Below the pieces are notes generated by a model that ran no database searches, was not told the DNA's origin, and worked only from the letters and a program-made list of their open reading frames with translations. Made by a program: the position numbers and the translations under genes. A stretch of DNA of 34,183 nt from Bacillota bacterium (GTDB lineage: Bacteria > Bacillota > Sulfobacillia > Sulfobacillales > Sulfobacillaceae): positions 1-34,183 of the forward strand of contig JAJYHT010000034.1 in the NCBI GenBank assembly GCA_021784595.1, written 5' to 3'. Shown here in pieces: positions 4,591-30,864 of the stretch (position 1 is the stretch's first letter; each line of letters starts with the position of its first letter).

Positions 4591-5190
4591 ATGAATTCAA
4601 AGCAATCTCTTTACATCGTGCGCCATGGTCAAAGTGTTGCTAATGCTTCGCGTGTGATGCAAGGCTGGTTCAATACCCCGCTATCGGCAAGAGGCCAACA
4701 GGAGGTCTTGCGCCTTAAGCGTTTTTTGCCGGTCAATGTGCCTATTATTGCAAGTGATCTCGATCGAGCGCGCCAAACAGCGGAGATTTTGCGAGGAGAG
4801 GGTCAGCCTGTGGTGTGGGAGTCCCGACTTCGGGAAGCTGACGTGGGGGATTGGCAAGGGCGCCCAAAAGCGGAGTTGATCTACGAATGGGACTGGCAAA
4901 ACTACATGACAAACCCTGAACACTTCCAGTTTCCAAACGGGGAGGCTCTCTCTGCAGTTGCCCAGAGGCTTTTGGAGGTCATCGAGGAGATCAGCCATCC
5001 GGCTGCAGTGCTGGTCACCCATCGTCTGGCCTTGCGAACTCTGCTTAGCGGGTTGACACAAAATTGGACCAACTTGCACCAGATCGCCATACCAAACGCT
5101 TCGATCACCCAGCTGGTACGGGTTTTCGGACACACGTGGGATATCCAAACCGTGGGCTGGGTGCCTCGACTAGAGAGTATCCATGATTAA
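4591..5190 (+). CDS. Histidine phosphatase family protein (PGM-like)
   Basis: A 199-residue member of the phosphoglycerate mutase-like histidine phosphatase superfamily. The phosphoacceptor motif is LYIVRHGQS with His12; the second catalytic histidine is His144 in VTHRLALRTL, and the acid loop is LREADVGDWQGR. The start is the ATG at 4591 behind GGGAGG; the frame is open further upstream but lacks a site. Small proteins of this type act on many sugar phosphates, cobalamin intermediates or phosphoglycerate, so the substrate is unknown. It lies 325 bp upstream of comA in the same direction; a role in dephosphorylating phosphosulfolactate is only a guess. Confidence 0.88.
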   Translation: MNSKQSLYIVRHGQSVANASRVMQGWFNTPLSARGQQEVLRLKRFLPVNVPIIASDLDRARQTAEILRGEGQPVVWESRLREADVGDWQGRPKAELIYEWDWQNYMTNPEHFQFPNGEALSAVAQRLLEVIEEISHPAAVLVTHRLALRTLLSGLTQNWTNLHQIAIPNASITQLVRVFGHTWDIQTVGWVPRLESIHD

Positions 5191-5515
5191 TCGGTCCAAA
5201 AACGGAGGAATTTCCCCTTAGAGTAGGGTGAGCGTCTCCAAGATGGCCAGAGGGGGGCTCTCCTCATCTCCTCTGCTTTGACCAAATCCAAGGAGGACAG
5301 GTAAAGTTTGAATATCGCAACACATTTGGCGCACGCTGAATTTCTTTGGAAGCGGGGAACCCATACCATTGGGGCGAATCTCTGGCATTGGCGCCAGAGT
5401 AGGGAGACAGATCCTTCCGAGCCCGTCAGCTAACCTCGTAAGCGTTGCTCTGTAGAGAAGTTCCAGTGTGTTTTTTTGCGTCCATTTGGGTTGCGCCCAC
5501 AGAAGGGAGATTGCT
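5191..5515 (+). other. Intergenic region before comA
   Basis: No convincing gene is seen here. A short hairpin (CTCTGGC at 5380-5386, GCCAGAG at 5393-5399) and a purine-rich stretch near 5250 are the only notable structures. It probably carries the promoter of the comA unit, but I cannot point to clear -35 and -10 boxes. Confidence 0.4.
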
Positions 5516-6283
5516 ATGGGAACATTGGATATTCCGATCAGATCCCAAAAGCCGCGCACCGAAGGACTGACGTTAATCAATGACCGCGGAGTCGGATTGG
5601 GCGCATGGGAGGACGCTTTACAAATGTCCGGGGAGTATGTTGACGTAGTGAAGCTCGGCATTGGCACTGCCTATGTGATGAAAAACCTGGAAGAAAAAGT
5701 AGGGTTTCTGCACAGTCGTGATGTGCAAGTGGTATTGGGCGGCACGTTGTTTGAAACGTTTTGGGCTCAAGGGCAACTCGACGCCTATTACCAGTTTGTC
5801 AAAGATCTCGGTTTGCAGTATGTAGAGATTTCATCAGGAAGCTATCCGATACCTCTGGACGATAAAGTAGCCATCGTGGAGCGCTTTGCCAAAGAATTTC
5901 ATGTAATGGCAGAGGTGGGCAATAAAGACGACGATAAACAGGCTGGAATCGCCGAACAGGTGGCGGAGGCTCACGCGTTGCGTCAAGCTGGCGCCAACAA
6001 GGTGATTTTGGAAGGGCGGGCATCGGGCACTGGCGGCATGTATGACCAGGACGGCAATGTCGACGATGCCTTAATCGACGCCATGACCCAAGTGCTTGCC
6101 GTCAGTGACATCATTTTTGAAGCTCCTTTAGAACAACAGCAGATTGCATTCATCCGGCGATTCGGTCCCAATGTAAACCTCGGCAACGTGTTATTCGAGG
6201 ACATCCTGATGTTGGAGACCGAGCGTGTGGGGTTGCGATTTGACACACTGGCGACGTCACGACCGGAGGGACTTTCGGGATGA
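5516..6283 (+). CDS. comA: Phosphosulfolactate synthase (ComA family)
   Basis: A 255-residue TIM-barrel enzyme matching the ComA family throughout. ComA adds sulfite to phosphoenolpyruvate to give (R)-phosphosulfolactate, the first step of coenzyme M synthesis in methanogens and of 3-sulfolactate formation in Bacillus spores. Family hallmarks are YVDVVKLGIGTAYV, VVLGGTLFETF, LQYVEISSGSYPIP, VMAEVGNKD, VILEGRASGTGG, IIFEAP and FGPNVNLGNV. The ATG at 5516 follows AAGGGAGA; the longer open frame upstream lacks family similarity. The gene overlaps the next one by 4 bases. No ComB-type phosphatase and no ComDE decarboxylase are in the window, so the end product is not coenzyme M on present evidence. 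Confidence 0.9.
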   Translation: MGTLDIPIRSQKPRTEGLTLINDRGVGLGAWEDALQMSGEYVDVVKLGIGTAYVMKNLEEKVGFLHSRDVQVVLGGTLFETFWAQGQLDAYYQFVKDLGLQYVEISSGSYPIPLDDKVAIVERFAKEFHVMAEVGNKDDDKQAGIAEQVAEAHALRQAGANKVILEGRASGTGGMYDQDGNVDDALIDAMTQVLAVSDIIFEAPLEQQQIAFIRRFGPNVNLGNVLFEDILMLETERVGLRFDTLATSRPEGLSG

Positions 6284-7185
6284 TTCTGGTGACGGAAATG
6301 ATGCACGACGAAGGCGTCAAAAGACTCGAAGACTTTCCCTTACGCTATGAGCCGGATTTATATCGGAAACCGCAGCAGTTGCAGCGTTGGTTGCCGGAGG
6401 TCGAGGCTTTAATTGTTCGCAACCAGACCCAGGTGAACCTGGACTTATTGTCGAAGATGCCGCGGCTGAGCGTGGTGGGACGGCTCGGCGTCGGACTGGA
6501 TAACATTGATACCAAGGCTTTAGAACAACGGGGCATTGCGCTTTTGGTACCTCGGGGTGCCAACGCCTCGGCGGTGGCGGAATATGTGATCGGGGCGATG
6601 CTGGCTTTTTCGCGGCAATATGAACAGATGGCGATGGGGACACGAGCCGGTAGATGGGAACGCCCGATGAATGTTCAGGGAATTTCGGGCCGCCACTTGC
6701 GCCTGGTTGGGTATGGGGCGACCGGGAAGGCCGTGGCAGAGCGGGCGGAGCCATTTGGACTGCGCGTGAGCGTCTATGATCCGTATGCTGATCAGGTGCC
6801 CAGTCGGTATCGGGTCAAGGCGTTGGAGGACGGTTTGGAGTCCGTGGACTATCTAAGCCTGCATGTGCCTCAAACACCAGATACCAAAGGGATGGTGAAT
6901 GCGAAACTGCTGGGTTGCCTCAAGCCTGGAGCCATTCTCATCAACGCATCCCGTGGTGAACTGGTCAACGAGAAAGACTTGGCCGATGCCATCAAGTCAG
7001 GTCATCTGGCAGGAGCCATTTTGGATGTGCGCGGCCATGAACCGCCTGATCGCGAGGATAGATTGTCACGATTAGACAAAATATGGACGACGCCGCATAT
7101 CGCGGGATTGACTGATGAGAGTCAGCGAACGATTGCCGTTTGGATAGCCGAGGGCGTAAAAACGGCGCTTCGCGAGCGCCGTTAG
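6280..7185 (+). CDS. D-2-hydroxyacid dehydrogenase, possibly sulfolactate dehydrogenase
   Basis: A 301-residue NAD-dependent 2-hydroxyacid dehydrogenase (phosphoglycerate dehydrogenase fold). The Rossmann motif is GYGATG (144-149), and the catalytic triad is in place: Arg225 (INASRGEL), Glu254 (RGHEPP) and His273 (TPHIAGLT). The start overlaps the comA stop (ATGA), so the two are coupled. By context the substrate may be sulfolactate/sulfopyruvate; SlcC, the (S)-sulfolactate dehydrogenase, belongs to this family, whereas ComC does not. Note that ComA makes the (R) form, so the stereochemistry would need testing. Phosphoglycerate or another hydroxyacid remains possible. A hairpin covers its last codons. 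Confidence 0.85.
   Translation: MILVTEMMHDEGVKRLEDFPLRYEPDLYRKPQQLQRWLPEVEALIVRNQTQVNLDLLSKMPRLSVVGRLGVGLDNIDTKALEQRGIALLVPRGANASAVAEYVIGAMLAFSRQYEQMAMGTRAGRWERPMNVQGISGRHLRLVGYGATGKAVAERAEPFGLRVSVYDPYADQVPSRYRVKALEDGLESVDYLSLHVPQTPDTKGMVNAKLLGCLKPGAILINASRGELVNEKDLADAIKSGHLAGAILDVRGHEPPDREDRLSRLDKIWTTPHIAGLTDESQRTIAVWIAEGVKTALRERR
7161..7183 (+). terminator. Hairpin over the 3' end of the hydroxyacid dehydrogenase
   Basis: A 9-bp perfect stem (AACGGCGCT at 7161-7169, AGCGCCGTT at 7175-7183) with a 5-nt loop ends at the stop codon. There is no T-run; it may stabilise or attenuate the transcript before the PanD-like gene. Confidence 0.4.
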
Positions 7186-7223
7186 GAAAACACGATGGCA
7201 GTTCAAGGGAGGGGTGGTGTTCG

Positions 7224-7610
7224 ATGCAATATCGGATGATGACAGCGAAAATCCATCGGGCTCGGGTGACCGAGGCCAATTTGAATTACATTGGGTCGGT
7301 GACAATTGACCAGACACTTTTGGACGCGACAGGTCTATTGCCCTATGAGATGGTGCAAATTACCAATTTGTCCAATGGCGCCTTATGGCAAACCTACATT
7401 ATTCCCGGTCCCCAAGACAAAGGTGACATTTGTCTGAACGGGCCGCCCGCGCGTTTGTTTCAACCAGACGATTTGGTCGTCATCCTGGGGTGGCGGATGG
7501 TTGACCAAGAGCAATTGCGTGAGCATCAGCCCACGGTCGTTTTCGTCGATGATAAAAATCATATTACTGACGTGGTTCGGGACGAAAAGGCCTTTACCAT
7601 CGTCCGCTAG
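7224..7610 (+). CDS. PanD-like pyruvoyl decarboxylase with altered active site
   Basis: A 128-residue protein alignable end to end with aspartate 1-decarboxylase PanD and conveniently in the same numbering as the E. coli enzyme. Conserved are Lys9 and His11 (KIHRARVT), the Gly24-Ser25 self-cleavage site that creates the pyruvoyl group (NYIGSVTID), Thr57, Tyr58 and Asn72. Changed are Arg54, which binds the substrate carboxylate in PanD and is Leu here (NGALWQTY), and Ala74-Ala75, which are Pro-Pro (NGPPARL). It should still mature but may decarboxylate something other than aspartate. The ATG at 7224 has AAGGGAGGGG upstream; it lies 38 bp after the dehydrogenase gene, with no panB or panC nearby. 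Confidence 0.8.
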   Translation: MQYRMMTAKIHRARVTEANLNYIGSVTIDQTLLDATGLLPYEMVQITNLSNGALWQTYIIPGPQDKGDICLNGPPARLFQPDDLVVILGWRMVDQEQLREHQPTVVFVDDKNHITDVVRDEKAFTIVR

Positions 7611-30321: not shown

Positions 30322-30864
30322 GTGCGCTGCGAAGGCGCACGGTTTGGGAGCAAACCGTGGCCGAACTATGCAAGAGATGAGGGACGGCCCCTCGAAATCG
30401 CCTTGCAGGAGGAGATTTCAAACCACCGTCAGTGGCTGGGGCGAAAAGCCCTGGTCGTGAGCGTGCCGGGAAAAGGCCCCGCTAGACGGGGTCAGGTGTG
30501 TGCCCGGGAGCTGAACGTCAGTTAACTCCTGACGAGGTGTCCAAAGGATAGAGGCGTCATCGAAACCGGGGTCCTGAAATTACCCCGGGACAGGGTAGAG
30601 CGGGAACCTGTCTACTGGCTCCACGGTGGCCGACATGAAGGGGGCAGGACCTGGGCGCAGGCTCTGGCATGGAACGCAGGAACCTTCGCACGGTGGTTGA
30701 CCGTATCGCGCAGATGGTGGTCAAGTTGACCTTCGAGCCTGTGGTCGAACCCCACTTTCATCCCGACTCGTACGGGTATCGCCCCGGACGGTCGGCGCAT
30801 GATTGATGCATTGACATTGACCCAAACCCGCCAACGTTGTTGGCGGCATGATTGGCTGTTGGAG
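30322..30864 (+). mobile_element. Group II intron remnant with reverse transcriptase fragment
   Basis: The stretch begins with a GTGCG 5'-end motif at 30322 and contains stem-rich sequence resembling intron domains I to IV (for example paired GGGTCC...ACCCCGG, and GGAACGCAGGAACCTT, which resembles the conserved part before the encoded protein). At 30696 it enters the middle of an LtrA-type reverse transcriptase: VDRIAQMVVKLTFEPVVEP, HFHPDSYGYRPGRSAHD. A 4-base duplication at 30801-30807 creates a stop, then DALTLTQTRQRCWRHDWLLE continues in another frame. The protein's N-terminus and everything after residue LLE are missing. No domain V was found. It is a dead element. Confidence 0.75.

Follow-up and report, generated by a model that had tools for sequence, protein, structure and literature searches.

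Three genes lie head to tail on the plus strand at 5516–7610 of the window (the whole 34,183-nucleotide stretch analysed, which is contig C22 of a draft genome of 3.79 Mb) and encode a ComA-family protein, a D-isomer-type 2-hydroxyacid dehydrogenase and a PanD-family protein. That they form a conserved operon preceded by a c-di-AMP riboswitch is virtually certain. The operon is likely to belong to a C3-sulfonate pathway. It may be osmotically regulated and produce a C2/C3 sulfonate compatible solute, for which taurine is the foremost, still tentative, candidate.

The trio had been recognized in the original prediction, and both the open reading frames and the family matches agree with its position, with the overlap between the first two genes and with the PanD-like gene that follows (Table 1). 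The ComA2 open reading frame was listed from 5468, and the gene was taken from 5516. Its stop codon overlaps the start of the dehydrogenase gene in the sequence ATGA, the PanD-like gene (PanD2) begins 38 bases past the dehydrogenase, and the next gene downstream has the opposite orientation. The same genome also carries a second ComA (ComA1) adjoining ComB on contig C19 (locus L005), a second PanD with His54 on contig C5, panC on contig C44, i.e. on a separate contig from PanD2, and a PF00282 decarboxylase. The cassette is thus additional to a classical ComA-ComB pair. The claimed absence of ComB and ComDE was correct within the window, but the genome does have a ComB, beside the canonical ComA.

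Table 1. Positions of features within the window.
Feature	Position	Strand	Basis and remarks
Histidine phosphatase superfamily gene	4591..5190	+	PF00300; own transcription unit upstream of cassette
c-di-AMP riboswitch aptamer	5324..5459	+	RF00379; upstream of ComA-like gene
Run of seven T, probable intrinsic terminator (expression platform)	5471..5477	+	Sequence, MFE fold
ComA2, divergent phosphosulfolactate synthase family protein, 255 aa	5516..6283	+	PF02679
2-Hydroxyacid dehydrogenase, SlcC-like, 301 aa	6280..7185	+	PF02826/PF00389
PanD-like pyruvoyl-dependent decarboxylase, W55, Arg54-less type (L54, P74, P75)	7224..7610	+	TIGR00223, residue table
Group II intron RNA	30379..30497	+	RF01999, 107 bits

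The riboswitch was identified in a search with RF00379 at 85.4 bits against a gathering score of 38 (E 9.6e-19). The aptamer is full-length (model 1–134), its conserved core being CCGUCAGCUAACCUCGUAAGCG, and the ATG of ComA2 lies 57 bases downstream of it. In the MFE fold, the aptamer is followed by a long closing helix, the 3′ strand of which is abutted by the T run, an arrangement that would probably act as an intrinsic terminator. A simple terminator scan did not return this T run, and scanning for consensus promoters and terminators was uninformative. Riboswitches occupied the same position at the cassettes of five genomes from four genera (G000, G003, G005, G006 and G030), with the T-rich run retained in all five copies. 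For any given gene, the probability that one falls by chance in the 250 upstream bases is about 2 in 10,000. Cassettes from genus g9 and from families f30, f10 and f41 had none, several of them having been rechecked at E values up to 1, which rules out a riboswitch at every cassette; ComA1 of the window genome also had no c-di-AMP riboswitch.

Published c-di-AMP riboswitches target osmotic-stress and wall genes, and one of them is reported to terminate transcription of an osmolyte-synthesis gene at high c-di-AMP, a signal that osmotic distress is absent (PMC9337991). The recurrence of the riboswitch before the cassette, in four genera and five genomes, points to osmotic control and an osmolyte product. 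Neither the riboswitch nor the phosphatase gene upstream of it had been included in the original prediction, and the riboswitch shifts the probable role of the operon to osmotic adaptation. Six c-di-AMP riboswitches are present in the window genome in total; of the remaining five, four lie ahead of wall-hydrolase or peptidoglycan-binding genes and one ahead of a glycosyltransferase gene. The last of these riboswitches (L182, 4293–4423, minus strand) stands before a GT4 glycosyltransferase that is nearest to the MshA model and matches sucrose-phosphate synthase more weakly; possibly this is another osmolyte or thiol gene. At f30, SAM riboswitches lie within a few kb of the cassettes, ahead of another gene cluster (L128, 12076–12182, minus strand; L129, 1817–1925, plus strand; L130, 4541–4649, plus strand). 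In the open-access literature, no earlier report of a c-di-AMP riboswitch before ComA or PanD was found, which is weak evidence of novelty.

ComA and PanD were searched in 154 genomes of the class. The two genes lay within 2 kb of each other on one strand in four families, which exceeds the roughly 0.1–0.3% expected per genome by chance. Other members of the window's own family (G003, G005, G023, G027 and G030) showed the full arrangement of phosphatase, ComA2, dehydrogenase and PanD in that order. The ComA2 gene of G030 (L055) is split across two frames, a possible sequencing error. The phosphatase was missing from the cassette of G031, and both phosphatase and dehydrogenase from that of G006. 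In G020 and G029, phosphatase, dehydrogenase and PanD remained without ComA2, while G015 (L057) had only an intact PanD beside what is left of ComA2, a fragment interrupted in frame by a stop codon. Such reduction of the cassette with PanD kept, through loss of ComA2 (G020, G029), of the dehydrogenase (G006) or of all but a fragment of ComA2 (G015), counts against the pathway. The order ComA, dehydrogenase, PanD was found again in f30 (G089–G091), a distant family of the class. In f10 and f41 the order was ComA, ATP sulfurylase, PanD with a divergent ComB alongside, and the f10 cassette additionally carries a class III aminotransferase. No aminotransferase was present in the f1 and f30 trio cassettes. 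Many W55-type PanD genes are solitary. Because the relatives are drafts, in many cases probably binned from metagenomes, all of these absences are soft.

ComA2 scored 257 bits against PF02679 (cut-off 25.2) and 230.8 bits against the equivalog TIGR03849, under its cut-off of 280; the ComA of the f10 cassette reached 329 bits, above that cut-off. Identity between ComA2 and ComA1 is 39%. Based on its family, ComA2 would add sulfite to phosphoenolpyruvate (PEP). The histidine phosphatase, which accompanies the cassette in seven genomes (G003, G005, G020, G023, G027, G029 and G030), is a candidate phosphosulfolactate phosphatase that could replace ComB.

General libraries placed the dehydrogenase near phosphoglycerate dehydrogenase. 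It was also compared with 72,556 plasmids, 2967 of which held a homologue, and hydroxyacid dehydrogenases encoded by Paracoccus, Sinorhizobium mexicanum and Methylobacterium matched best. The matching gene of P. aestuarii, P. seriniphilus and M. radiotolerans shares a single gene run with SuyA and SuyB (both UxaA family), ComC (Ldh family) and a sulfite/sulfate exporter, and in P. versutus it adjoins an Ldh-family gene with a TauE-type exporter nearby. SlcC-ComC-SuyAB is a sulfolactate breakdown set, for which S. mexicanum has also been named (PMC12421959), and the gene content of the Paracoccus and Methylobacterium clusters matches this set. The f30 cassette dehydrogenase retrieved largely the same plasmid relatives, and an unrelated paralogue from the window genome matched GhrB-type enzymes and not the SlcC set. 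A further SlcC-like dehydrogenase (L152, 7064–7999, minus strand, contig C24 of G000) lies amid flagellar genes and antisense to them; this paralogue, too, retrieved largely the same relatives. In the best tree, the cassette and SlcC proteins fell on one side of a branch with support of 42/70, which neither strongly supports a common clade nor rejects it. Judged by its plasmid relatives, the dehydrogenase may convert sulfolactate to sulfopyruvate. SlcC itself is an (S)-sulfolactate dehydrogenase. The product of ComA is (R)-phosphosulfolactate (PMC5695019), so that the cassette dehydrogenase would need the opposite specificity or another partner.

PanD2 matched PF02261 and scored 130.7 bits against TIGR00223, above the cut-off of 106; its closest plasmid relatives are ordinary panD genes with identity of up to 52%. 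Its residues were inspected in a set of 107 PanD sequences, comprising 105 from the class and those of E. coli and B. subtilis. None of the 107 departed from K9, H11, Y22, S25, T57, Y58 and N72, and self-processing and activity are thus to be expected of all. Arg54 was present in 28 and missing from 79, including PanD2 with Leu54, and was absent from every one of the 16 ComA-adjacent proteins (13 Leu, 3 Trp). All Arg54-less PanD have Trp55 and, together with eight Arg54/Trp55 proteins, make up one clade of 87 (SH-aLRT 100). Pro74 and Pro75 are found in all Leu54 PanD, in which Glu56 is replaced by Gln, Arg or His. PanD has its active site at the interface of subunits. Arg54 and the backbone NH groups of Ala74 and Ala75 bind the ligand carboxylate in the M. 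tuberculosis enzyme, whose R54A mutant is inactive (PMC6969166). Prolines at positions 74 and 75 are unable to donate these backbone hydrogen bonds. With Arg54 lost, both prolines present and Glu56 changed, aspartate bound in the usual way is unlikely to be the substrate, and PanD2 is probably not primarily an aspartate decarboxylase. The original prediction had proposed a search for the trio in other genomes and had named an ordinary aspartate decarboxylase in an unconserved gene order as evidence against it; the gene order was found to be conserved and Arg54 to be lost.

Canonical PanD adjoins panC in several genomes and W55-clade PanD in none. In family-level tests, which rest on small counts, panC was present in 11 of 11 families with canonical PanD and missing from 5 of 12 with the W55 type only (Fisher p = 0.024), f30 with its ComA-dehydrogenase-PanD operon being among the five. 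Limitation of ComA linkage to W55 PanD was discarded as a statistical argument, as it was not significant by family (p = 0.09). Some panC-bearing genomes have a W55-type protein as their sole PanD and one of them, G048, also has no PF00282 decarboxylase, so W55 PanD may still make beta-alanine. A rule by which Arg54-less PanD occurs only where a PLP decarboxylase of PF00282 covers beta-alanine fitted the L54-only f1 genomes and was broken by G048.

Other PanD types were also noted. A second family with His54 and Trp55 and no Arg54 (L006, 8198–8587, and relatives) is conserved across the order and adjoins an MFS transporter gene and a small MTH1187-like gene. It is present in every genome of the order that is at least 86% complete and has no PF00282 decarboxylase, and may be the real beta-alanine maker in genomes of that kind. 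Several genomes of family f40 (L163–L176) have three PanD genes, some combining the canonical Arg54 and Leu54 types. In other genera (L121, L126, L120), Leu54 PanD adjoins genes for a Gfo/Idh/MocA oxidoreductase and glycerol kinase/glycerol-3-phosphate dehydrogenase, with an aldose-epimerase-like gene upstream.

A pathway with putative substrates throughout, and a putative aminotransferase and product, can be proposed from these assignments. ComA2 would combine PEP and sulfite into phosphosulfolactate, from which sulfolactate would be formed by the neighbouring histidine phosphatase or by ComB encoded elsewhere. The SlcC-like dehydrogenase would yield sulfopyruvate, a housekeeping aspartate-type aminotransferase would convert this to cysteate, and the altered PanD, with its self-made pyruvoyl group, would decarboxylate cysteate to taurine. 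Transamination to cysteate is postulated because aspartate aminotransferases are broad in substrate. By analogy with known c-di-AMP riboswitches, high c-di-AMP (no osmotic stress) would stabilize the riboswitch and transcription would end at the T run ahead of ComA2, whereas at low c-di-AMP the operon would be transcribed. The sulfonate pathway of the original prediction is supported by the SlcC-like dehydrogenase, the conserved ComA-PanD linkage and the ATP sulfurylase in the sister cassettes; taurine as its end product is still conjectural, with a likelihood slightly short of even. More tentative again is the complete proposal, i.e. de novo taurine synthesis from PEP and sulfite by an osmolyte operon that a c-di-AMP riboswitch controls, with the first pyruvoyl-dependent cysteate decarboxylase, derived from PanD via loss of Arg54. 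With Arg54 lost and two NH donors missing through Pro74 and Pro75, the known anion site is gone, and a sulfonate would want such a site too. One guess is that Gln, His or Arg at position 56 compensates. Further points against the proposal are the lack of an aminotransferase in the f1 and f30 trio cassettes, the many solitary W55-type PanD, the cassettes that have no riboswitch and the TIGR03849 score of ComA2.

In four families PanD has been retained behind ComA, and canonical PanD is never ComA-adjacent; both facts weigh against an operon in which sulfolactate is itself the osmolyte (or its enantiomers are interconverted via sulfopyruvate) and PanD2, serving another need, is merely carried along. 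For sulfolactate, moreover, the genome already has ComA1-ComB available. This explanation has precedents, as sulfolactate from the ComA pathway is a spore solute of Bacillus subtilis (PMC517825) and SlcC with ComC constitutes a sulfolactate racemase (PMC12421959), and PanD-L is solitary in many genomes; overall it appears unlikely. The spore sulfolactate raised in the original prediction suits the ComA1-ComB pair better than the cassette operon. About equally unlikely is that PanD2 supplies pantothenate synthesis as an aspartate decarboxylase whose pocket is unusual and whose position near ComA is incidental. In favour of this are the TIGR00223 score and the panC of nearly all genomes of the family, some with W55-type PanD only, but Arg54 is required in characterised PanD (PMC6969166) and is lost here together with the changes A74P and A75P. 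Furthermore, W55 PanD is never panC-adjacent and occurs in families without panC, the ComA linkage recurs, and the window genome has its other PanD (H54) and the PF00282 decarboxylase.

R54L, P74 and P75 would together give a hydrophobic, donor-poor side-chain pocket (PMC6969166), as expected if the PanD2 substrate were an amino acid whose side chain is uncharged, with another amine or a sulfonate conjugate being the osmolyte made by the operon. No other feature of the clusters suggests such a substrate, and Gln, Arg or His in place of Glu56 could rescue anion binding; this is the least probable of the three. The coenzyme M pathway shares its first three steps (ComA, phosphatase and sulfolactate dehydrogenase) with the cassette, but its sulfopyruvate decarboxylase (TIGR03845) was above cut-off in none of the 18 cassette bearers searched; the window genome had no match at all, and weak matches were seen only in f30 and, once, in G027. 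With the genome's own ComA-ComB pair elsewhere and ComDE not found, coenzyme M was ruled out as an extremely improbable assignment.

If taurine or a related sulfonate is indeed the product, bacteria would possess a route to it that neither starts from cysteine nor employs a PLP decarboxylase, and a large PanD subfamily named ‘aspartate 1-decarboxylase’ in databases would be explained. The second messenger of osmotic stress would then directly govern sulfonate synthesis. The enzymes of the individual steps are small and soluble, which makes each step testable.

Among known systems, the yitBA-yisZ operon of B. subtilis includes ATP-sulfurylase and sulfite-forming genes. Both it and yitCD have been inferred to serve phosphosulfolactate synthesis (PMC517825), and they have the ComA-family synthase and a sulfonate solute in common with the cassette; the ATP-sulfurylase genes inferred for the same pathway compare with those of the f10 and f41 cassettes. 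The B. subtilis spore operon is under sigmaE/sigmaK sporulation control and the cassette under a c-di-AMP riboswitch. Relative to that operon, the cassette lacks ComB and has gained the dehydrogenase and PanD, the placement of ComA beside ComB being found only on C19 (L005). The SlcC-ComC-SuyAB catabolism of Paracoccus and Chromohalobacter shares the SlcC-like dehydrogenase, at about 42% identity. SuyAB and ComC are missing from the window cassette, and the presence of ComA suggests that sulfolactate is made rather than broken down. The methanogen coenzyme M pathway (ComA-ComB-ComC-ComDE) has the first reactions in common, but the cassette has no ComDE, its dehydrogenase is not of the ComC family and PanD is found instead. 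PanD2 belongs to the aspartate 1-decarboxylase family with the self-cleavage Gly-Ser site and all catalytic residues, and differs from canonical PanD in Arg54 to Leu, Ala74-Ala75 to Pro-Pro, Trp at 55 and Glu56 to Gln, as well as in being linked to ComA rather than to panBC. With the c-di-AMP (ydaO/yuaA) riboswitch, the element upstream of ComA2 shares the full aptamer, the conserved core and a terminator-like T run.
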